From Kordia sp. TARA_039_SRF (GTDB lineage Bacteria; Bacteroidota; Bacteroidia; Flavobacteriales; Flavobacteriaceae), in the NCBI GenBank assembly GCA_006383075.2, contig SMNH02000002.1, positions 445,127 through 509,126 on the forward strand: 64,000 bases of DNA. The letters run 5' to 3'. Each line of letters begins with the position of its first letter. Within the stretch, counting starts at the first letter, position 1. This document shows, piece by piece, positions 2,142 through 12,967 of this stretch. The position numbers were made by a program, and so were the translations under genes. A model generated the notes under the pieces. That model ran no database searches. It was not told the DNA's origin and saw only the letters and a program-made list of their open reading frames with translations.

Positions 2142-3665
2142 CTATCGTTTTCTTAATTCAAACAAATCTGTTCTACGATCTTGAAGGTTTTTTACCGCTC
2201 CAAATTGATTGAGCTCGCGCAGTAAGTCGATATCAACATCGGCAATGAGAATCATTTCGGTATTTGGTGTGGCTTCTGCTTTGATTCCATTGGTTGGAAA
2301 GGAGAAATCACACGGCGTAAATACCATCGATTGCGAAAATTGAATGTCCATATTTTGCACTTTTGGCAAGTTTCCAACACTTCCCGCAATAGCGACATAA
2401 CATTCGTTTTCAATAGCTCTGGCTTGCGCACAGTTTCGCACGCGCGAATAGCCGTTTTGTGTATCTGTTAAAAATGGTACAAATAGAATATCCATGCCTT
2501 CGTCTGCTAGTAAACGACTGAGTTCAGGAAATTCAGAATCGTAGCAGATTAATACGCCAATTTTACCACAATCTGTATCAAAAGTTTGTAAAGAGTTTCC
2601 GCCTTGCATTCCCCAAACTTTGGCTTCGTCTGGCGTTACGTGTAGTTTTTCGTAGCGTTCTACACTTCCATCGCGCTTACACAGATAACCGACGTTGTAC
2701 AGAACTCCGTCGCGCACTTCTGGCATGCTTCCTGAAATGATGTTGATGTTATACGAAATGGAAAATGCTGAAAATTTCTCTACGATTTCTTCTGTATGTT
2801 TAGCCAATTCACGAATCGCATCTGGCGTAGACATGTGATTGTTGACTGCCATTAATGGTGCATTGAAAAATTCTGGAAACAGTGCAAAATCTGAGCGATA
2901 TCCTGCCACAGCATCAATAAAAAATTCCACTTGCTGCATCAGCTCTTCCATATCTTTATACGGACGCATTTGCCACTGAATCAGTCCCAAACGCACTACT
3001 TTTTTCTTTGTTGTTGCCTTTTTTGTCGGTTTTTCGTAGTAAATATTGTCCCATTCCATCAACACGGCAAATTCGTTAGACGCAGAATCGCCTTTTAAAT
3101 AGCCTTTTAAGACTTTCGTCGGATGGAAATCGTTAGAAATTTGAAAATTCAACACAGGATCATCAATTTCCTTAAGTTTTACTTTTTGAATGTATTGCTT
3201 CGGACTTAACGAATCGGCATATTGATGATAATTCGGAATTCTTCCACCAAAAGCGATGCCTTTTAAATTGCGCTTTTCACACAATTCTTTTCGGTAATCG
3301 TACAAGCGTCTTCCCAATCGTAAACCGCGAAATTCGGGTTTTATAAAAATGTCAATTCCATATAAAATATCGCCATCATCTGTATGCGCGTCGAATGATT
3401 TTTCAACAATATCATCATACGTGTGCGAGCCTTCTAACGAATCGTAATCGACCAAAATAGATAATGCGCAACCTGCGATTTGTCCGTTGATTTTTATCAC
3501 AACTTGTCCTTCGGAGAATTTTTTAATCAATGCTTCAATTTCAAATTCTTCCCAATACACATCAGACATGTTTTTGTATATCTGAATCATCGCTGCTTTC
3601 AGTTCCTGATAATCATCAACACTTAAATAAGTAAGTTCAATATTTTCAATGTCCTTTGCGTTCAT
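2142..3665 (-). CDS. bifunctional GNAT N-acetyltransferase / carbon-nitrogen hydrolase
   Basis: The 507-residue protein is a fusion. Residues 1-215 form a GNAT acetyltransferase-like domain with the acetyl-CoA loop region around RGLRLGRRLYD (residues 113-123). Residues 224-505 form a nitrilase-superfamily domain with the Glu-Lys-Cys triad visible: Glu265 in FPEFF, Lys340 in YEKLHVTPDE and Cys374 in VLICYDSEFPE. This fusion is known in Bacteroidota and other bacteria, but its substrate is not established. It is the last gene of the minus-strand run that begins with arginine decarboxylase. Because that run makes agmatine and putrescine, an amidase/acetylase acting on polyamine-type amides is an attractive guess, not shown. 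It starts 20 bases after the VOC gene stop. Confidence 0.85.
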   Translation of the reverse strand: MNAKDIENIELTYLSVDDYQELKAAMIQIYKNMSDVYWEEFEIEALIKKFSEGQVVIKINGQIAGCALSILVDYDSLEGSHTYDDIVEKSFDAHTDDGDILYGIDIFIKPEFRGLRLGRRLYDYRKELCEKRNLKGIAFGGRIPNYHQYADSLSPKQYIQKVKLKEIDDPVLNFQISNDFHPTKVLKGYLKGDSASNEFAVLMEWDNIYYEKPTKKATTKKKVVRLGLIQWQMRPYKDMEELMQQVEFFIDAVAGYRSDFALFPEFFNAPLMAVNNHMSTPDAIRELAKHTEEIVEKFSAFSISYNINIISGSMPEVRDGVLYNVGYLCKRDGSVERYEKLHVTPDEAKVWGMQGGNSLQTFDTDCGKIGVLICYDSEFPELSRLLADEGMDILFVPFLTDTQNGYSRVRNCAQARAIENECYVAIAGSVGNLPKVQNMDIQFSQSMVFTPCDFSFPTNGIKAEATPNTEMILIADVDIDLLRELNQFGAVKNLQDRRTDLFELRKR

Positions 3666-4535: not shown

Positions 4536-4850
4536 TTAGTAATCATCATCTTCTTCCAAAGTTGGGTCTTGCACCGCATCTGGGTCATTATCGTCAAAAT
4601 CAGTGTAATCGTCTTCGTCGTAGTTTTCCATGGTCATTTCAAGTTTTACACTCACTTTTACCAAGTATTTGGTGTCGCCCGAAATTACCTCAACAGCTTC
4701 TACCGATTCGCCTTTCGCGTTTTTAAATTTAATGATGTTTTCTTCTTCATAACCAAAAGGGTATTTTTCTACCAGTAATGCTAAGATTTCAGGTGTTAAC
4801 TTTTTAAAGTCAACAATAACACGCTTTAGGTTTTTGTTATTGGTTTTCAC
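4536..4850 (-). CDS. small acidic conserved protein, function unknown
   Basis: The 104-residue protein has a basic N-terminus (MKTNNKNLKRVIVDFKKLTPE), a central segment with the look of a small alpha/beta domain, and a very acidic tail dominated by Asp and Glu from about residue 77. I recall similar short proteins next to polyamine genes in Flavobacteriia, sometimes carrying the unsupported name DNA primase; nothing in the sequence supports primase activity. It starts 21 bases after the stop of the deoxyhypusine-synthase-like gene. The acidic tail could bind cationic ligands such as polyamines, which is only a guess from composition and context. Confidence 0.75.
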   Translation of the reverse strand: MKTNNKNLKRVIVDFKKLTPEILALLVEKYPFGYEEENIIKFKNAKGESVEAVEVISGDTKYLVKVSVKLEMTMENYDEDDYTDFDDNDPDAVQDPTLEEDDDY

Positions 4851-4871: not shown

Positions 4872-5849
4872 TTATAAGTTTAATAAGTATGCAAATATTA
4901 ATGGAGCTACAATGGTAGCGTCACTTTCTATGATGAATTTTGGCGTGTCGATATCCAATTTTCCCCATGTAATTTTTTCATTCGGAACTGCTCCAGAATA
5001 CGACCCATAACTTGTGGTAGAGTCACTTATTTGACAGAAATAATTCCAAAATGGTGTATCGGTACGTTCTAAATCTTGATACAGCATTGGTACGACACAG
5101 ATTGGGAAATCGCCTGCAATTCCGCCTCCAATTTGAAAGAATCCGATGCCGTTTTCTGAGTTTTCCGTGTACCAATCTGCCAGAAACGTCATGTATTCAA
5201 TTCCTGATTTTATAGTACTCGCTTTTAATTCTCCTTTCATCACATACGACGCAAAGATGTTTCCCATCGTACTGTCTTCCCATCCAGGACAGACAATTGG
5301 CAGATTTTTTTCCGCCGCAGCGTACATCCATGAGTCTTTTAAGTCAATTTCATAATATTCTTCCAACACGCCCGAAAGCAACATTTTATACATGTACTCG
5401 TGCGGCAAATAGCGTTCGCCTTTTTCGTCGGCAGCTTTCCAAATATCGTAAATGTGACTTTGCAATCTGCGGAAGGCTTCTTCTTCAGGAATGCACGTAT
5501 CCGTTACACGATTGAGTCCTTTTTCAAGTAAATCCCATTCGTCTTGCGGTGTTAAATCGCGGTAGTTTGGCACGCGCTTATAATGTGAATGCGCTACCAA
5601 ATTCATGATGTCTTCTTCCAAATTGGCACCAGTACACGAGATGATGTGTACTTTGTCTTGACGAATCATTTCTGCGAAGATTTTCCCCAATTCCGCCGTA
5701 CTCATCGCACCTGCTAAAGAAACTAACATTTTGGAACCTTTTGCCAAATTGTCTTCATAGCCTTTAGCGGCATCTACTACAGACGCTGCATTGAAGTGTA
5801 AGTAATATTTTTCTATGAATTGAGAAACGGCTCCTTTAGTCTTCGTCAT
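4872..5849 (-). CDS. deoxyhypusine-synthase-family protein
   Basis: The 325-residue protein belongs to the deoxyhypusine synthase fold. The NAD-site signature ISCTGANLEEDI (about residues 70-81), the GGG loop in FFQIGGGIAGDFP, and the active-site segment ITWGKLDID are visible; Lys297 aligns with the catalytic lysine of eukaryotic enzymes (in VSWGK). The eukaryotic enzyme moves an aminobutyl group from spermidine to eIF5A, but bacteria lack eIF5A. Bacterial relatives include homospermidine synthase-like enzymes that use putrescine or another amine as acceptor. It overlaps the agmatinase gene by 14 bases and follows arginine decarboxylase, so a small amine is the likely acceptor. The exact product is an open question. 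Confidence 0.85.
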   Translation of the reverse strand: MTKTKGAVSQFIEKYYLHFNAASVVDAAKGYEDNLAKGSKMLVSLAGAMSTAELGKIFAEMIRQDKVHIISCTGANLEEDIMNLVAHSHYKRVPNYRDLTPQDEWDLLEKGLNRVTDTCIPEEEAFRRLQSHIYDIWKAADEKGERYLPHEYMYKMLLSGVLEEYYEIDLKDSWMYAAAEKNLPIVCPGWEDSTMGNIFASYVMKGELKASTIKSGIEYMTFLADWYTENSENGIGFFQIGGGIAGDFPICVVPMLYQDLERTDTPFWNYFCQISDSTTSYGSYSGAVPNEKITWGKLDIDTPKFIIESDATIVAPLIFAYLLNL

Positions 5850-6780
5850 CTTCGTTGTATTTTAATCGGTTAATTTTGTTTTCGTTTTGTGCGTTGTATA
5901 GGTTTTCGTTGTCGTCTTCAACGTTTTGTTCAAAAAATTTATAGCTCAACATTTTGTAGTACAGTTTTGCAGCTAAAAAATCTGAGGATTTATCGTTTGG
6001 ATTTGGACATAGTTCTACAATATCAAATCCGACTACATTTTTTTCATCAAACACACGTTTTAAAAACTCCAAGGTTTCGTACCAAAACAATCCGCCAGGT
6101 TCTGGAGTTCCTGTGGATGGCATGATAGACGAATCGAGTCCGTCCAAATCGAACGTGATGTATACAGTTTCGCCCATTGCTTCAATGGCGGTGTCCATCC
6201 AATAGTCATCGTTTACCATATCGTGTGCAAAAAACACATTGTCTTCGTTCATTACAGTGCGCTCAATAGCGTCCATACTACGAATTCCCACTTGCACTAA
6301 GTTGGTATTTTGATTTGCTTCGTACATGGCACACGCATGGTTGTACTTTGAACCTTCGTATTCTTTGCGTAAATCGGCATGTGCGTCAATTTGTAAGACA
6401 GTAAGGTTGTCAAAACATTCGTTAAAAGCGCGCATAGCACCAATGGATATGGAATGTTCGCCACCAAATAACGTCACAAATTTATTGCGTTTGATGTTGG
6501 TTTTTACAGCTTCATGTACTGCTTTTACCATCGCTTCTGGCGATGCATCTTCGGTAATCGTTTCGGCTAAATAAATTCCTTGTTTGTATACTTCACTATC
6601 GGTTTCAATATCGTATAGTTCCATATTTTCAGCAGCATGTAAAAATGCTTCTGGTCCTTTGTCAGCTCCTTTTCCCCAAGTGCTTGTACCATCGTACGTA
6701 ACAGGAATTAAGGTAATTTTCGATGTTTCGAAGCTTGCATACGCATCAGGAATGCCTGCAAATGTTTTTGTGGTTTTCAT
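5836..6780 (-). CDS. speB: agmatinase-family ureohydrolase
   Basis: The 314-residue protein carries the manganese-binding motifs of the arginase/agmatinase family: GGEHS (106-110), DAHAD (132-136) and DLDGLD (211-216), followed by TPEPGGL. These proteins hydrolyse a guanidino group to urea. With arginine decarboxylase directly upstream (52 bases) the natural reading is agmatine to putrescine plus urea. The C-terminal extension (about residues 285-314) is acidic and Asn-rich and overlaps the start of the deoxyhypusine-synthase-like gene. It should be cytoplasmic. Arginase or guanidinobutyrase activity cannot be excluded from sequence alone. Confidence 0.88.
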   Translation of the reverse strand: MKTTKTFAGIPDAYASFETSKITLIPVTYDGTSTWGKGADKGPEAFLHAAENMELYDIETDSEVYKQGIYLAETITEDASPEAMVKAVHEAVKTNIKRNKFVTLFGGEHSISIGAMRAFNECFDNLTVLQIDAHADLRKEYEGSKYNHACAMYEANQNTNLVQVGIRSMDAIERTVMNEDNVFFAHDMVNDDYWMDTAIEAMGETVYITFDLDGLDSSIMPSTGTPEPGGLFWYETLEFLKRVFDEKNVVGFDIVELCPNPNDKSSDFLAAKLYYKMLSYKFFEQNVEDDNENLYNAQNENKINRLKYNEDDED

Positions 6781-6832: not shown

Positions 6833-8293
6833 TTAATTGATTGTTGTTTCTAGATTAACTTCCTCGTTGGTGTCATCTAGTTTGTTGTTGATGCTGTAAT
6901 CGTATCCTAAAAGTGATAATAAGTTTTCCGATGTTTGTTGCTGCGAAAATAATTCCGTCACAATGTTTCCTTCTTCGTCTCTGTCAATTAGAATGTGTTT
7001 CGGTTGTGGAATTAAACAATGTTGTAATCCGCCAAATCCGCCAATGGTTTCTTGATACGCACCTGTATTAAAAAAGCCAATGTATAATGGTTTTTCTTTG
7101 CTGTATTTTGGCAGATAAATCGCGTTCATGTGTTGCTCACTGTTGTAGTAATCGTCACTATCGCATGTTAATCCGCCTAACAATACACGCTCGTATTCTT
7201 TTTGCCATCCTGTAATTGGAAGCATGATAAAACGCTTGTTGATTGCCCACGTATCTGGCATTGTGGTGATGAATGATGAATTGATCATATTCCACTTTTC
7301 ACGATCATTTTGTTGTTTTTGATACAATACTTCGTAAATCGCGCCGCCACTTTCGCCAACAGTAAAACTTCCGAATTCCGTAAAGATGTTTGGAACTGGC
7401 ACGCCCGCTTCTTCGCAAGTTTGTTTGATTTGCAAGATGATTTCATCAATCATATACGCGTAATCGTAGTCAAACGCCAACGAGTTTTTAATTGGGAATC
7501 CGCCACCGATATTCAAACTATTTAATGAAGGACATACTTTTTTAAGGTTGATGTACACTTTCATACATTTCAGCAATTCGTTCCAATAATACGCCGTATC
7601 ACGAATTCCTGTATTGATAAAAAAGTGTAACATTTTCAACGTTACTTTTGGATTGTCTTTGATTTCTCGATTGTAAAAAGGCACAATGTTTTTGTAACCA
7701 ATTCCCAAACGCGAGGTATAAAATTCAAATTTCGGCTCTTCTTCTGAAGCAATTCGGATTCCGATATTGTAATTGCCTTTGATTTCTTGACTCAACAAGC
7801 TGATTTCCTCATAATTGTCTATAATTGGAATGCAGTTGTTGTGTCCGTTATTGATCAAGCGTCCAATATTTTTAACATACTGATCACGCTTAAAACCGTT
7901 GCTGATTACAAACGTATCGTCTGTAATTTTTCCTTGCGCTTTTAGGTTTTCCACGATATCAATATCAAACGCAGAAGAAGTTTCAATGTGAATATCATTT
8001 TTCATCGCTTCGTTCAACACGTGTTTAAAGTGTGAACTTTTGGTACAATAACAATAATTGTAATTGCCTTCGTAGTTGTGCTTTTGCATCGCATTGGCAA
8101 ACCACGTTTTAGCATTGTTGATGTTTTCTGATATTTTTGGTAGGTACGTAAATTTTAAAGGCGCACCATATTCTGCAATGAGTTTTGAAAGGTCAATGCC
8201 GTGAAATTGTAATTTGTTGTTTTCATCAAGGTTGAATTCTTTTTGAGGGAAATCAAATGTTTGCTCAATGAGATCAATGTATTTAGTTTTCAA
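6833..8293 (-). CDS. speA: biosynthetic arginine decarboxylase (PLP, fold III)
   Basis: The 486-residue protein is a fold-III PLP decarboxylase. The PLP lysine is Lys85 in CYCTKSSH, the phosphate-binding GGGFP segment follows in the barrel, and the C-terminal catalytic cysteine sits in GLTCDSDDYYN. It is shorter than the E. coli SpeA of about 658 residues, in keeping with the bacteroidotal form. It would convert arginine to agmatine, the first step of the polyamine run continued by the two downstream genes. A long leader with a good promoter precedes it (8294-8595). The start ATG is preceded by an A/T-rich stretch and no Shine-Dalgarno, as is normal in this phylum. Confidence 0.9.
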   Translation of the reverse strand: MKTKYIDLIEQTFDFPQKEFNLDENNKLQFHGIDLSKLIAEYGAPLKFTYLPKISENINNAKTWFANAMQKHNYEGNYNYCYCTKSSHFKHVLNEAMKNDIHIETSSAFDIDIVENLKAQGKITDDTFVISNGFKRDQYVKNIGRLINNGHNNCIPIIDNYEEISLLSQEIKGNYNIGIRIASEEEPKFEFYTSRLGIGYKNIVPFYNREIKDNPKVTLKMLHFFINTGIRDTAYYWNELLKCMKVYINLKKVCPSLNSLNIGGGFPIKNSLAFDYDYAYMIDEIILQIKQTCEEAGVPVPNIFTEFGSFTVGESGGAIYEVLYQKQQNDREKWNMINSSFITTMPDTWAINKRFIMLPITGWQKEYERVLLGGLTCDSDDYYNSEQHMNAIYLPKYSKEKPLYIGFFNTGAYQETIGGFGGLQHCLIPQPKHILIDRDEEGNIVTELFSQQQTSENLLSLLGYDYSINNKLDDTNEEVNLETTIN

Positions 8294-8581
8294 TGTTCTA
8301 ATGAATTTTTAATTTAAGAAAAAAAGTGTGTGCTATCAATTCATACGTAATAGCTAAAAAATACAAATATTTCCTCAAATACGAAAAGCGAATACCGTAA
8401 ATGGTATGAAAGTGCGTTGTAATAAGCACTTGAAAGTATGTTCTGTTTCAGAAGTCAGCCTAAGAATTCGGCGTCTGATACGTAAGACTGCTTTTGGAGT
8501 AGACTTCTTTATGCTCCTAAGCCCGAATCTGAAAAAAGCATTCATTTTTGTAGGCAATGCGTTCTTTTGTTGAACTCATTT
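8294..8581 (-). promoter_or_regulatory. structured speA leader with consecutive hairpins
   Basis: Between the predicted transcription start near 8581 and the speA ATG lies a leader of about 287 bases that is clearly less AT-rich than its surroundings. Reading along the minus strand it can form: GCATT/AATGC; GGAG/CTCC; TCAGA-x-GCC paired with GGC-x5-TCTGA; AAGTGC/GCACTT (8426-8431 with 8410-8415); and ATACC/GGTAT with a 6-base loop. Five stems in series over about 190 bases look like a regulatory RNA rather than spacer. A short Arg-rich reading frame overlaps the third stem. I do not recognise a known riboswitch class. Control by arginine or polyamines is inferred from position. Confidence 0.5.
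8375..8545 (-). CDS. putative Arg-rich leader peptide upstream of speA
   Basis: A 56-codon frame starts at an ATG preceded by an A-run (ACAAAA), about 36 bases after the predicted transcription start, and ends about 80 bases before speA. The peptide is strongly basic; its central part VLRIRRRILRL has five Arg in eleven residues, encoded by a mix of CGT, AGA, CGC, CGA and AGG codons. These Arg codons lie in the 5' arm of the TCAGA/TCTGA hairpin. That arrangement recalls leader peptides of attenuators and the SpeFL leader of gammaproteobacterial ornithine decarboxylase. An in-frame TTG lies four codons upstream. It may equally be a chance frame within a structured RNA. Confidence 0.35.
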   Translation of the reverse strand: MNAFFRFGLRSIKKSTPKAVLRIRRRILRLTSETEHTFKCLLQRTFIPFTVFAFRI

Positions 8582-8587
8582 ACAGAG

Positions 8588-8595
8588 CAAACATA
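8588..8595 (-). promoter_or_regulatory. TAnnTTTG promoter for speA
   Basis: On the minus strand TATGTTTG matches the bacteroidotal -7 box TAnnTTTG exactly. A TTTTTTG run lies 15 bases upstream as a possible -33 box; the spacing is shorter than the usual 17-23. It places transcription start near 8581, making a leader of about 287 bases. Confidence 0.55.
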
Positions 8596-8808
8596 CACAA
8601 AAAATGAATTCAAAAAACTTTTTTTAATTTTTTTTACACTTTTTTCGAAACAACCTTACAACATTCTGATACACAAAAATATAACACTAAAAAAACTAAC
8701 AGCATTTCTATAAAAAGGAACACGAAAAATATTTTCTAAAAAAAGTATAAAAAATAATTGTCATGTTTATTTTTTAGTTACTTTCGCTATAGCTTTTAGC
8801 TGACATTT

Positions 8809-8967
8809 ATGAATTATATGTATGATTTCGGGTTGTTGGAAATTAGGAAGTCAAATCCAATAACAGCTTTTAGAATAAGTAACCGAAACTTAAAGCTAAC
8901 TTCCGTTAAAAACTTCATTTTAAAACATATAGACACTACTGTAGTCGTCATATACATTCGCGCGTAA
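8809..8967 (+). CDS. possible small ORF, unknown
   Basis: A 52-codon frame begins with ATG at 8809 in the otherwise gene-free 8600-9161 stretch and encodes a moderately basic peptide (MNYMYDFGLLEIRKSNP...). A TACTTTCG box about 30 bases before it resembles a weak -7 element. No family is recognised and there is no signal peptide or leader motif. It could be chance in AT-rich DNA. The remaining bases 8968-9161 show nothing I can interpret. Confidence 0.2.
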   Translation: MNYMYDFGLLEIRKSNPITAFRISNRNLKLTSVKNFILKHIDTTVVVIYIRA

Positions 8968-9161
8968 TTCCTTTTCAACAGATTGGGAAGTATATATTTC
9001 ATCAATACTTATCTATTTTAATTTTAAGAGAAAAAAACGTTCTTAAAAACTGTCAACTACTTGTCCGTTCTTCCAGAGAAGAATGTACTAGAGATTTCCG
9101 AACTCTACTTGACATACGCTATCGGACACTAATAAAAAATAATTTTAAAAAATATAGTATC

Positions 9162-9464
9162 ATGAAAACAATCACAATTATTACCAGCATTCTTCTTTTC
9201 CTTTTTGCGCCTGTTGACGAAACTAAAACTATTGAAGCAACCTACGACGGATATGAAGACGGAACGTATTATTTTACAGATAGCAACGACGACCTTTTTG
9301 AATTTCAACAAGTAGAAAAAGCGGTCTTAAAAGAATTCGATTTAATGAGCAATACCTTTGAAAATAAAAAATTTAAAGTAACTTATAAAACCGTTGAAGA
9401 AGAAGTGGACGACGAAGAGTACACAAGCTACGTTATCACCGCTTTAACATTAATCAAAGAGTAA
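9162..9464 (+). CDS. small secreted acidic protein, unknown
   Basis: The 100-residue protein has a hydrophobic N-terminal segment (TIITSILLFLFAPV, residues 4-17) consistent with a signal peptide, followed by a beta-rich, acidic domain with repeated Tyr/Phe and a Glu-rich loop (EEEVDDEEY). No family recognised. It is a single-gene unit closed by a strong hairpin terminator 8 bases after the stop, and an A-rich region precedes the ATG. Confidence 0.6.
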   Translation: MKTITIITSILLFLFAPVDETKTIEATYDGYEDGTYYFTDSNDDLFEFQQVEKAVLKEFDLMSNTFENKKFKVTYKTVEEEVDDEEYTSYVITALTLIKE

Positions 9465-9565: not shown

Positions 9566-10993
9566 ATGATTATTCAACCTAATGACTTTGAGCCAACAGA
9601 TCACTGGTATCCAAAAGCTTTAAACGCTACCATACACCCTATGGTACATTTCTTTTTTAATTTAGACAGAGAACGCATTATTACGAGATACTGTCACATG
9701 CATCCTTCCGTAAGTCGTGAAAAATTGAGAGCTATTCTCAACTATAAATGTAAATATTTCCAATGGGGCGGCGCGGATTTGTTAAACGTAACCTCATCAG
9801 GCGCGAAACGACAAATGGTGGTGATTGAAAATAACTCTTGCCCTTCTGGTCAGAAATCCATGCCTTTATTAGACGATAATGACGAACAAGGAAGTTACCG
9901 ATTGATGGTTGAGCGCACTTTTAAACCTTTTATTAAAAAAATTAAAGATGTAAAAGGCGGTTTGGCTGTTATTTATGATAAAAATGAAATTGAAGTGTTC
10001 GGATATGCCAAAGTCATTGCCGATGTGATGAATGAACCTGTACATTGTGTTCCTTTTTACAAAGACGATAAAAACCCAAAAGTGTATTTTGAAGACGGAA
10101 TTATGTACATTAAAGAAGATAACGACAAAGAAGCGTTACCAATGCGCGCCGCTTTTCGTTATTTGACACAAAAACCGTGGAACAGATTGCCATTAAACAC
10201 CAAAACAAAAATATTAAATCCGACGATTGTATGTTTGGCTGGCGGACGAAATAAAATGGTGGCTGCCAAAGCGTACGATATTTTTAATGCAGAATTGAAA
10301 GCACACGGTTTAAAGATAAATACGCCTGAAACCATTTGGGACGTTCGTAAAGAGGAAATTCCGTTGTGGGTCAATAAAATGGGCGGACAAGCGGTTATCA
10401 AAGTTCCGTATAGCAATGCTGGACAAGGCGTATACACAATTATCAATGAAAAGGAATTGGATGATTTTATGGAACTTGAGTTTGATTACGACTTGTTCAT
10501 CATTCAAAGCTTGATTGGTAATTCCAATTGGAGCAGCGTTACTTCTTCGGGGAAATTGTATCATGTAGGAATGATTCCGAACCAGAAAAACGAAACATAC
10601 ATTGCAGATATTCGCTTGATGGTGAGCGCGACTAAAAACGGAATTTTACCATTAGTAGCGTATGCGCGTAGAGCCAAAGCGCCATTAAAAGACCATATTG
10701 ATGGCGGCTCTGACAGCTGGGAAATGTTGGGAACAAACTTATCGTTTAAAGAAACAGATGGTTCTTGGGGAAGCGATGCCAAACGATTATTACTCATGGA
10801 TCGACGCGATTTTAACAAATTAGGACTAGGATTAGACGATTTAATCGAAGCGTATATTCAAACTGTATTATCAACTGTTGCAATTGATAAAATGGCGAAA
10901 ACCTTGATTAATACAAAAGGTGTGTTTAAATATGACCTTTTCAAAAGTTTAAACAACGACCAAGGTTTGTTAGACGAAATTAAAATTCGTTAA
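9566..10993 (+). CDS. ATP-grasp-like ligase, first gene of a three-gene operon
   Basis: The 475-residue protein is not an obvious member of a named family, but its C-terminal half has the marks of an ATP-grasp fold: a Gly-rich loop after a Lys strand in VIKVPYSNAGQGVYTI (about residues 279-294), and a later IADIRLMVSA strand resembling the DxR segment that binds ATP-Mg. The N-terminal half (1-220) has unknown function and a conserved-looking Cys motif (ENNSCPSGQKS). ATP-grasp enzymes join a carboxylate to an amine through an acylphosphate. Its stop overlaps the next start in TAATG, so it is translationally coupled to a second ATP-grasp gene. Product unknown. Confidence 0.65.
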   Translation: MIIQPNDFEPTDHWYPKALNATIHPMVHFFFNLDRERIITRYCHMHPSVSREKLRAILNYKCKYFQWGGADLLNVTSSGAKRQMVVIENNSCPSGQKSMPLLDDNDEQGSYRLMVERTFKPFIKKIKDVKGGLAVIYDKNEIEVFGYAKVIADVMNEPVHCVPFYKDDKNPKVYFEDGIMYIKEDNDKEALPMRAAFRYLTQKPWNRLPLNTKTKILNPTIVCLAGGRNKMVAAKAYDIFNAELKAHGLKINTPETIWDVRKEEIPLWVNKMGGQAVIKVPYSNAGQGVYTIINEKELDDFMELEFDYDLFIIQSLIGNSNWSSVTSSGKLYHVGMIPNQKNETYIADIRLMVSATKNGILPLVAYARRAKAPLKDHIDGGSDSWEMLGTNLSFKETDGSWGSDAKRLLLMDRRDFNKLGLGLDDLIEAYIQTVLSTVAIDKMAKTLINTKGVFKYDLFKSLNNDQGLLDEIKIR

Positions 10994-12000
10994 TGAAAAC
11001 ATACAACATACTCATCATTACCGATCATACGAATCACAGCGTACAAAACTCTGTGTACGTGATGGCAAGCGAATTTCCCAATCATGAATTGGTGGCTTCG
11101 GTTGACATTGCTTCTTTGGGAATTCCGCAAAATGAATCGTTTTTAGAAGATAGAAACACTTCAACGTTGTGGGTAAATCCTGTGGATACTTCGTTTCAGT
11201 TTACGGAAGATGGTACATTTTTTTACAACAATCTCACCGAAAAAAGTATTGAAGCATACGATTTTGTTTGGTTGCGATTGCCGCCGCCGTTAAGTTCTGC
11301 ACAATTGACATTTTTAAAAGAAGTTTGCCAACAGCAAGTGGTTATTAATAATCCTTCGGGAATTGAAATAGCAGGTACTAAAAAATACTTGCTCAATTTT
11401 CCGCAGTTGTGCGCGCCAATGCAGTTATGCACTACGGTAGATGATATCATTGATTTCACAGAAAAGCACGAGGAAATTGTACTCAAACCTATCAATTCCT
11501 ACGGCGGAAAAGGCATTGTAAAGCTAGACCGTGAAAATGTATGGGAAGGTAATAAATTGCTTTCTAAGCTTGACTTTTTTAACGAATTACACAAAAATCC
11601 GTTTGAGTATTTAGCCGTAAAGTTTTTAAAAAATGTGCATGAAGGCGATAAAAGAATTGTAGTGATTAACGGAGAAATTCTTGGTGCTACATTACGCATG
11701 CCTGCTTCTGATTCGTGGTTGTGTAATATTTCTAGTGGCGGAACTCCCGCAGATACCATCATCACACCAGAAGAATTGGAAATGGTACACACTGTAAATC
11801 CGTTTCTGAAAAAATTGGGCATTGCCATGTACGGACTTGACACGCTCACGAACGATGCAGGCAAAAGAATCCTCTCTGAAATTAACGTCACCAGTGTTGG
11901 CGGCGTATATCAATTTCACCAGAAAGAAGGTCGTCCGCCCGTACAAAAAGCAGTGAATGAATTACTAAATTTTTTTATAGAAAAAGCGAATGAAAATTGA
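10993..12000 (+). CDS. glutathione-synthetase-like ATP-grasp ligase
   Basis: The 335-residue protein resembles GshB/RimK ATP-grasp ligases. The N-terminal third carries a WLRLPPP segment like the substrate-domain edge of GshB; VLKPINSYGGKGIVKL (about 154-169) is the ATP-binding strand-loop; GDKRIVVINGEILG and the following SSGGTP correspond to the ATP/metal segment; SEINVTSVGG is the catalytic C-terminal element. GshB joins gamma-glutamylcysteine and glycine, but Bacteroidota generally lack the classical glutathione pathway, so another amino-acid or peptide product is likely. It overlaps the upstream gene by 1 base and the downstream deacylase gene by 11 bases. Confidence 0.82.
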   Translation: MKTYNILIITDHTNHSVQNSVYVMASEFPNHELVASVDIASLGIPQNESFLEDRNTSTLWVNPVDTSFQFTEDGTFFYNNLTEKSIEAYDFVWLRLPPPLSSAQLTFLKEVCQQQVVINNPSGIEIAGTKKYLLNFPQLCAPMQLCTTVDDIIDFTEKHEEIVLKPINSYGGKGIVKLDRENVWEGNKLLSKLDFFNELHKNPFEYLAVKFLKNVHEGDKRIVVINGEILGATLRMPASDSWLCNISSGGTPADTIITPEELEMVHTVNPFLKKLGIAMYGLDTLTNDAGKRILSEINVTSVGGVYQFHQKEGRPPVQKAVNELLNFFIEKANEN

Positions 12001-12967
12001 TCAAAAACAAACACCAATTCATGTTGAGGAAATTGACATACAAAATATTCAAAAGGAATCGATTTCAAGATATTGGCTCAAAATAGCGGAAGACGGACTT
12101 GGAAAGCCCATTAGTATTCCTGTGATTGTTGCCAAAGGAAGAAACGAAGGTAAAGTGGTAGGAATTACTGCTGCAGTTCACGGAAACGAATTGAATGGAA
12201 TTTCTGTAATTCAAAAACTATTTGGCGAATTGGACGTTACCGAACTTCAAGGAACGATTGTCGGAATTCCTGTGGTGAATGTGCCTTCGTATATTAGAAA
12301 CAGACGGCGATTTATAGACGATGTCGATTTAAACCACATCATGCCTGGAAAGGAAAACGGCAATGTGAGTCAGGCATACACGTGGAGTTTTGTGCACAAA
12401 ATTCTCAATCAGTTTGATTATTTGGTCGATTTGCACACGGCAAGCAACGGACGTATCAATTCGTATTATGTACGGGCAGATATGAAAGATGCGACAGTTC
12501 AAAAAATGGCATTGCTGCAAAATGCGCAGATTATTGTGCACAATCCGCCAAGTGATGGCACTTTGCGTGGAACTGCGAACGAATTGGGAATTCCTGCCAT
12601 TACGATGGAAGTTGGGAATCCGAACTTATTCCAAAAAGGCTTGATTCGCGATGGATTGACAGGAATTTACAACTTACTCAGCGTTTTTAATATTCTCGAT
12701 TGCGAAGTGGAAGAAGCGGAAGAAAGTGCTGTTTTGTGTAAAAAATCGTATTGGATTTACACGGCAAAAGGTGGCTTACTCACGGTTCATTCCCGCTTGA
12801 CGGATATTGTAGAAAAAGGAGAAAAAGTAGCAACTTTACGCAATATTTTTGGTGATATTACCGAAGAATACTTTGCGCCAGAAAAAGGTGTGATTATTGG
12901 AAAAAATGTAAATCCAGTCTCGCAAACTGGAGGACGTATTTTGCATTTGGGAATTTTGGAAAACTAG
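11990..12967 (+). CDS. succinylglutamate desuccinylase/aspartoacylase-family zinc hydrolase
   Basis: The 325-residue protein belongs to the AstE/AspA branch of zinc carboxypeptidases. HGNELNG (about residues 64-70) carries the first His and Glu zinc ligands, DLHTAS (about 147-152) the third, and a Glu-containing TMEVGNP segment supplies the likely catalytic base. A C-terminal barrel-sandwich domain (from about 235) is typical. The family removes acyl groups from N-acyl amino acids. It overlaps the ATP-grasp gene by 11 bases, so the two ligases and this amidohydrolase probably act on the same metabolite, one making and the other trimming an amide bond. Confidence 0.85.
   Translation: MKIDQKQTPIHVEEIDIQNIQKESISRYWLKIAEDGLGKPISIPVIVAKGRNEGKVVGITAAVHGNELNGISVIQKLFGELDVTELQGTIVGIPVVNVPSYIRNRRRFIDDVDLNHIMPGKENGNVSQAYTWSFVHKILNQFDYLVDLHTASNGRINSYYVRADMKDATVQKMALLQNAQIIVHNPPSDGTLRGTANELGIPAITMEVGNPNLFQKGLIRDGLTGIYNLLSVFNILDCEVEEAEESAVLCKKSYWIYTAKGGLLTVHSRLTDIVEKGEKVATLRNIFGDITEEYFAPEKGVIIGKNVNPVSQTGGRILHLGILEN

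Follow-up and report, generated by a model that had tools for sequence, protein, structure and literature searches.

The speA locus and its leader

We analysed a window of 64,000 nt from Kordia sp. TARA_039_SRF; Kordia is a member of the Flavobacteriaceae, the family to which the counts below refer. On the minus strand of this window, a gene for a speA-type arginine decarboxylase adjoins an agmatinase gene (speB), which is followed by genes for a deoxyhypusine/homospermidine synthase-like protein and a small acidic protein (Table 1). We infer that these four genes form one operon and that the speA product acts on arginine; the top NCBIfam matches of this product are speA and biosynthetic arginine decarboxylase, both below cut-off. 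Among named records, the closest speA sequences are those of Kordia algicida (91%) and K. aestuariivivens (87%). The speA start of the window (8293, minus strand) is a TTG, whereas nearly all relatives listed have ATG.

Upstream of speA lie a leader open reading frame (ORF) and a conserved RNA, element A, that overlaps it. A divergent second copy of the RNA, element B, shares the same intergenic region, an arrangement also present in G004, G005 and G006 of the window's genus, and is followed by genes for an acidic protein and for a cluster of enzyme-like proteins.

A previous sequence-only reading of this DNA had claimed an exact TAnnTTTG box ahead of the leader, which is present as TATGTTTG. 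TAnnTTTG is the sigma-A consensus of flavobacteria (PMC9723704); 63 of 146 relatives have an exact copy at most 90 nt from the leader start, a number that mononucleotide shuffles would put at about 13. The leader length of about 287 nt proposed in that reading holds if transcription begins just past this box; a second exact TAnnTTTG is found farther upstream of the leader, at 8674-8681 on the minus strand, and the speA transcription start is therefore uncertain.

Table 1. Features of the speA locus in the window, with positions, strand and basis of assignment
Feature	Position	Strand	Basis or remark
TAnnTTTG (-7) promoter box, TATGTTTG	8588..8595	-	sequence; box enrichment upstream of relatives
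RNA element A, 114 nt	8447..8560	-	model match 94.2 bits (window sequence within model training set)
Element A, P1	8553-8557/8456-8460	-	imperfect in window
Element A, P2	8523-8527/8467-8471	-	
Element A, P3	8514-8522/8490-8498	-	imperfect in window
Element A, P4	8485-8488/8473-8476	-	one base out of consensus register
Element A, pseudoknot	8503-8508/8450-8455	-	
Leader ORF, 56 codons, ATG to TGA, MNAFFRFGLRSIKKSTPKAVLRIRRRILRLTSETEHTFKCLLQRTFIPFTVFAFRI	8375..8545	-	conserved start, stop, length and C-terminus; pN/pS
Spacer from leader stop to speA start, 81 nt; possible expression platform	8294..8374	-	
speA-type arginine decarboxylase	6833..8293	-	TTG start; Pfam PF02784 above cut-off; substrate presumed
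Agmatinase (speB)	5836..6780	-	NCBIfam TIGR01230 above cut-off
Deoxyhypusine/homospermidine synthase-like protein	4872..5849	-	Pfam PF01916 above cut-off; NCBIfam matches below cut-off
Small acidic protein, next gene on the same strand	4536..4850	-	no Pfam/NCBIfam match
RNA element B, divergent second copy	8794..8907	+	model match 108.5 bits (also within training set)
Element B, P1	8797-8801/8894-8898	+	
Element B, P2	8827-8831/8883-8887	+	
Element B, P3	8832-8840/8856-8864	+	
Element B, P4	8866-8880	+	
Element B, pseudoknot	8846-8851/8899-8904	+	
Leader ORF B, 52 codons, ATG to TAA	8809..8967	+	lacks the speA-type C-terminus
Acidic protein, 100 aa, predicted secreted, downstream of element B	9162..9464	+	secretion judged by eye; no Pfam/NCBIfam match
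Cluster downstream of element B: weakly RimK-like protein, glutathione synthase-like ATP-grasp protein, AstE/AspA-like hydrolase	9566-12967	+	

A conserved RNA fold with a pseudoknot

The leader RNA has a conserved fold of four helices, P1 to P4, and a pseudoknot that joins the P3 loop to the 3' side, all supported by covariation. It is this fold, rather than the "five hairpins in series" of the sequence-only reading, that relatives share. RNAalifold predicted the pseudoknot helix only, and the nested helices were drawn manually on the sequences before their pairs were counted. Across 66 aligned sequences, the helices and the pseudoknot are paired in 89.4% of cells and 17 of 31 pairs show changes on both sides; none of 500 shuffles scored as high on any of five measures, and pairing falls to 50-55% when the partners are slid by one base. 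Broken down by helix, pairing reaches 90.9% in P1, 99.7% in P2, 89.1% in P3, 99.5% in the pseudoknot and 70.2% in P4. The last is the weakest and least certain helix; one reason is that Kordia-like rows are paired one base off the register of the others, and in either register its four outer pairs form in just 68-80% of cells.

More distant members brought in by model R1, in an alignment fitted to the nested structure, show both-sided changes in 24 of 25 nested pairs. The pseudoknot was absent from R1, which describes the nested helices, and is paired in 95.0% of cells, with both-sided changes in five of its six pairs. The training sequences of R1 had been selected by peptide similarity. Since the sequences are related, the covariation counts, like the other counts reported here, overstate the number of independent events.

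Invariant positions occur both within and between the helices, and the element shows one general feature of riboswitches, a conserved, complex and covarying fold upstream of related genes. It matches no Rfam 15 family: the whole window gave no match at gathering thresholds, and a lax search of window positions 8200-9200 and of the loci of seven relatives returned two tRNAs, which lie outside the element, all its other hits scoring below the gathering thresholds.

Distribution of the element

Strict filters were applied for the family, order and phylum samples. At E<=0.01, model R1 detected the RNA in 190 of 397 sampled Flavobacteriaceae genomes. With speA called at E<=1e-100, these 397 comprise 186 genomes with RNA and speA, 83 with speA and no detected RNA, 4 with RNA only and 124 with neither; three of the four RNA-only genomes have the RNA before a homologue of the small acidic protein (4536-4850), and in the fourth it lies at a contig end. 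Ten of the 11 genomes of the window's genus have a match, G007 being the one without. All six matches in a phylum-wide sample of 395 genomes fall in the Flavobacteriaceae, as do 18 of the 20 found with model R2 in an order-wide sample of 395 genomes. The two weak matches outside the family (L197, L198) were judged to be chance hits, and the 3.1 kb fetched around them held no speA; L198 carries a 65-codon TTG frame despite this judgement.

The leader open reading frame

The sequence-only reading had also pointed to a 56-codon frame containing VLRIRRRILRL, and we confirmed it on the minus strand, from ATG to TGA. Judged by comparison with relatives, this frame is a genuine leader ORF. Its first 33 or so codons, start codon included, overlap the 114-nt RNA.

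Among 80 speA loci from named genomes (the best 80 of 589), 62 have a homologous frame upstream of speA; these 62 were collected via peptide similarity and are biased towards the frame. All 62 have an NTG at the aligned start codon (46 TTG, 13 ATG, 3 GTG). Five of the 18 loci without a homologous frame by peptide have the RNA and a leader ORF, and a sixth, from Polaribacter (L088), has one weak RNA match (E 0.0049) and a 54-codon frame; two have less than 50 nt of upstream DNA, and the remaining ten gave no RNA match. In Aequorivita L078, a 29-codon frame ending in LPIRI (2320-2409, plus strand) lies 91 nt before speA with no RNA match, so a leader peptide may exist without the RNA.

When loci were taken by the RNA model, a leader ORF was present in 84 of 85 (L170 being the exception). 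Of the 87 loci L101-L187, 78 were entered in one of the comparisons; of the other nine, seven are repeats, and L186 and L187 were used only together with L188-L196. L130, which lies at a contig end, was left out of the leader-ORF count and of the downstream-gene census. Leader starts were sought as ATG, TTG, GTG or CTG in a stretch of 10 to 18 nt and the longest frame was kept, so the presence of some start is partly by construction. Free of this effect are the aligned NTG codons described above, the common offset of 15 at which 65 of the 84 frames start, and the absence of CTG from the starts of the 142 distinct leader ORFs, the window's two included (TTG 90, ATG 47, GTG 5, CTG 0). In eleven further loci outside these counts (L186-L196), a leader ORF of 55-64 codons precedes speA in all eleven and ends in TGA in nine.

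The 142 leader ORFs stop at TGA in 118 cases, TAA in 18 and TAG in 6, against a background of 275 TAA, 37 TAG and 24 TGA in 336 ORFs of at least 200 codons from the same 80 loci. All have 50-63 codons except one (L034), whose frame of 83 codons overlaps the speA start by 4 nt; the leader stop mostly lies 50-150 nt before speA. Counting back from the stop, Pro occupies position -9 in 104 of the 142, Phe position -11 in 106 and Thr position -7 in 89, and the final residue is Ile or Val in 130. The conserved peptide end, found mainly in speA copies, reads F-x-P-x-T-x3-(I/F)-x-(I/V) or x-P-(I/L/V)-x-(I/V) and as a rule precedes UGA.

Substitution patterns, computed with L034 left out, differ along the frame. 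The last 21 codons have a pN/pS of 0.31 (870 pairs), against 1.58 and 1.57 in the shifted frames, and thus evolve as protein. The ratio is 0.66 for codons 7-33 (0.90 and 0.82 in shifted frames), and codons 2-6, at 2.16 (0.70 and 0.48), carry no protein signal. In 71 frames of 55 codons, differences per codon position are nearly equal across codons 7-33 (0.205, 0.197 and 0.237), and in the tail they are 0.464, 0.421 and 0.611. For leader-ORF tails of the SQH class, RNAalifold found no consensus in 44 sequences, and in an indel-phase test on tails the alignments put frame-shifting gaps in both classes.

Frame and stems are both conserved among relatives, in keeping with what the sequence-only reading expected of a functional leader, and the outcome in which neither is conserved is excluded; its expectation of an Arg-rich frame failed, most relatives having few Arg codons. 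Purifying selection on the tail would also fit a small protein that works in trans, with the RNA fold being incidental. We give this explanation hardly any weight, since the conserved end goes with speA, the tail classes differ by lineage, the first half is constrained as RNA, and the window frame matched neither Pfam (E<=0.01) nor NCBIfam.

A peptide end linked to speA

A census of 80 RNA hits, made up of best-scoring hits and chosen weak or second copies rather than a random draw, placed speA on the same strand and no more than 1,600 nt away in 72, about 124-238 nt past the RNA. The two contexts differ in the leader ORF: TGA is the stop in 117 of 134 frames before speA vs one of eight before other genes, and a Pro falls within -10 to -4 in 122 of 134 vs three of eight, a residue found in 13% of seven-residue stretches farther upstream. 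Outside the speA context, then, the RNA is retained and the peptide ending and the TGA are mostly missing.

The same difference is seen within a single genus, g20, in which all 12 genomes carry the RNA, with 16 hits. Four copies precede speA and have leader ORFs of 55-56 codons, TGA in all four and the usual peptide end, whereas in the 12 copies before the small acidic gene the leader ORFs run to 58-86 codons, every one starting with ATG, one ending in TGA and none with the usual end. Exceptions are known elsewhere: a copy before the small acidic gene in L202 has 52 codons, a TGA and an FRI end, and a copy in L183 that precedes a RimK gene, here a RimK-Zn-protease fusion, also has TGA and FRI.

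These data bear on the alternative already raised in the sequence-only reading, that the RNA acts alone and the frame is chance. For most copies before other genes this fits; for speA it does not, given the pN/pS, the stop and the conserved end. A purely riboswitch-like RNA whose sequence gives rise to the open frame as a by-product would account for the many non-speA copies that keep the RNA without the peptide end, and for core codons with little coding signal and codons 2-6 with none. As a general explanation it is improbable and, for speA, already disfavoured, because the tail beyond the RNA combines low pN/pS with near-fixed length, TGA and the conserved end.

The proteins encoded near these copies recur. 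The small acidic protein of the putative speA operon has a tblastn match in 55 of the 80 speA loci, and in other genomes it is encoded by a stand-alone gene with its own RNA copy; its structural model (pLDDT 72.5) gave no Foldseek match at E<=0.001. Relatives of the 100-aa protein downstream of element B follow RNA copies in L142, L143, L144, L170, L171 and L173 (E 4e-57 to 3e-14), and in g20 they lie 230-1,010 nt upstream of the RNA in eight of the 12 copies before the small acidic gene.

A proposed model for control of polyamine synthesis

Comparison across relatives shows the RNA fold, the coding constraint on the leader ORF and the speA-linked peptide end with its UGA. From these, we consider it most likely, on balance, that the leader ORF is under the control of a riboswitch-like RNA and that the end of this ORF slows termination at speA. 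The cis-regulatory element would consist of two overlapping parts, the pseudoknotted RNA and the leader ORF with its conserved end. The RNA would bind a small molecule of the arginine, agmatine or polyamine pathway, and its ligand is probably a metabolite of arginine or polyamine metabolism. Binding would lower translation of the leader ORF because the folded RNA and a ribosome moving through the same stretch would exclude each other. If a ribosome reaches the end, its nascent chain would slow it at the UGA, much as happens in TnaC or SpeFL; the slowed ribosome would keep the downstream message open or intact and thereby allow expression of speA, speB and the homospermidine synthase-like gene. 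In most copies before other genes, only the RNA and the start codon would act; in several of these, the leader stop is close to the start of the next gene. We rank polyamine-pathway compounds first among candidate ligands in view of the genes at this locus, namely speA, speB and the one for the homospermidine synthase-like protein. In two species of Flavobacterium, a related genus and not that of the window, sym-homospermidine has been reported as the main polyamine (PMC8570120).

It is tempting to go further, and we do so tentatively, by proposing that about 100 nt serve both as a metabolite aptamer and as the first half of an arrest-peptide gene. In such a two-input sensor, the aptamer ligand would gate leader translation, and events at the stop would depend on the nascent chain, perhaps together with another ligand bound in the ribosome tunnel. 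Its RNA part would have spread by itself to further genes, which would make up a polyamine regulon not otherwise known. Another possibility, which we regard as rather unlikely, is that the structured RNA and the leader peptide are real but no metabolite is involved, the RNA being a roadblock, a ribosome sensor or a protein-binding site (e.g. for a co-regulated small acidic protein) and the signal being carried by the nascent peptide or the translation rate alone. Structured 5' regions and leader-peptide attenuation have been reported in a Flavobacterium (PMC9723704), and the small acidic protein, which RNA copies precede, could be an autoregulator. However, the invariant positions and the pseudoknotted five-helix fold resemble an aptamer more than a simple roadblock, and the main gene set is metabolic.

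The element would represent a new class of structured RNA, linked to polyamine synthesis across a large bacterial family and unusual in that RNA structure and leader-peptide code overlap. The two uncharacterized families of small acidic proteins are candidates for membership of a polyamine regulon. Since one genus has copies that keep the conserved peptide end and copies that lack it, natural controls are available.

Relation to known systems

The systems closest in their working, by analogy, are SpeFL/orf34, TnaC, the odc1 motif and the uORF-linked B12 riboswitches. Like the speA leader, SpeFL/orf34 is a short ORF in the leader of a gene for a polyamine-pathway decarboxylase, speF of Salmonella and E. 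coli (PMC6386406, PMC8429421). In Salmonella, orf34 ends in UGA; translation of the leader ORF affects downstream expression, and SpeFL undergoes termination arrest (PMC6386406, PMC8429421), to which the arrest proposed here would be analogous. In contrast to the speA leader, this ORF has 34 codons and serves an ornithine decarboxylase in gammaproteobacteria (PMC6386406, PMC8429421), and the window frame has no Pfam match at E<=0.01, hence none to the SpeFL family (DUF2618; PF10940 as named in the paper). TnaC stalls with UGA in the A site, where RF2 is held inactive (PMC8429421), and UGA is strongly preferred in speA leaders too; unlike them, TnaC has 24 residues ending in Pro and senses tryptophan in the ribosome, and the account in PMC8429421, as far as it covers TnaC, describes no overlapping RNA domain. 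Conserved C-terminal residues at a conserved stop, a feature of SpeFL/TnaC-type termination arrest, are found in the speA copies.

The odc1 motif of alphaproteobacteria likewise pairs a pseudoknotted RNA with a conserved uORF, with UUG starts, before an ornithine decarboxylase gene (PMC8632094). It occurs in a different bacterial class and before a different gene, and consists of a single long hairpin, a pseudoknot that involves the 5' end, and an 11-codon uORF adjoining the main start (PMC8632094); the element described here has a different fold and an ORF of 50-63 codons and is not an odc1 motif. In uORF-linked B12 riboswitches, the uORF lies inside or beside the aptamer and its translation alters downstream expression, by termination-reinitiation at ppe2. 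These belong to the B12 class, and their description leaves open whether the metE uORF peptide has a role, whereas the peptide end of speA leaders is conserved and the RNA matches no Rfam class. A spermidine riboswitch, a SAM-I variant, also precedes polyamine genes but has the SAM-I fold (PMC10853860); no SAM family matched in the Rfam searches, and we reject this assignment. The main text of that report does not contain the terms "Bacteroid", "Flavobacter", "speA" or "homospermidine".

The main texts of two surveys of bacterial structured RNAs (PMC11109978, PMC8632094) contain none of the terms "speA", "arginine decarboxylase", "Flavobacteri" and "Bacteroid". Titles and abstract starts among the literature matches listed, a scope that leaves aside supplements and most subscription papers, hold no description of the RNA or its leader. 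The knotted RNA that overlaps the first half of a leader peptide gene in many flavobacteria looks like a new device for the control of polyamine synthesis.

Arginine codons and the region before speA

The sequence-only reading had proposed that stalling or pausing at Arg codons, which it placed in the 5' arm of a TCAGA/TCTGA hairpin, or a ligand-bound ribosome could switch the following stems. In a classical attenuator, ribosomes would pause at these codons when charged tRNA-Arg is low. The nine Arg codons of the window frame invite this reading, and in Salmonella the orf34 leader of speF works through paired Arg codons (PMC6386406). Over the 142 leader ORFs, however, the median is four Arg codons (range 1-10), and the proposed hairpin is not conserved, being paired in 40.3% of cells and showing no covariation. 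For a TTCAGA/TCTGAA pairing next to it the figure is 56.6%, above all 500 shuffles (mean 53.7), with an ordinary covariation score (84 of 500 as high). The presence of two of the Arg codons can be explained by the RNA fold, as CGA is part of helix P2 and AGG, in many relatives, part of the P3 loop. Such an attenuator would raise an arginine-consuming enzyme at low arginine, which would also run contrary to expectation, though Salmonella speF does respond to low arginine in that way (PMC6386406). Neither the conserved run of codons nor the conserved alternative hairpins with a terminator that define amino-acid codon attenuators were found, and the window has no terminator-like hairpin by pattern scan and none above shuffles. 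Attenuation at Arg codons is therefore, in our view, very improbable.

How the leader might act on speA was approached in 59 sequences, 58 of the 62 named loci plus the window, loci with leader-to-speA gaps outside 20-130 nt being left out. Predictions in which a ribosome occupies the leader stop give a more open speA start (by >0.05) in 40 of 59 loci; compared with shuffled 5' arms, openness of the free speA start is lower in 30 and higher in nine. Sequestration of the speA start looked convincing by eye in some species and varies by lineage; in the window it is weak, openness rising from 0.53 to 0.59 with the ribosome, against 0.53 in shuffles. Terminator-like hairpins at p<=0.1 were found in 17 of the 59 sequences vs about 6 expected, and in L023, L049, L021 and L026 such hairpins begin 6-30 nt past the leader stop.
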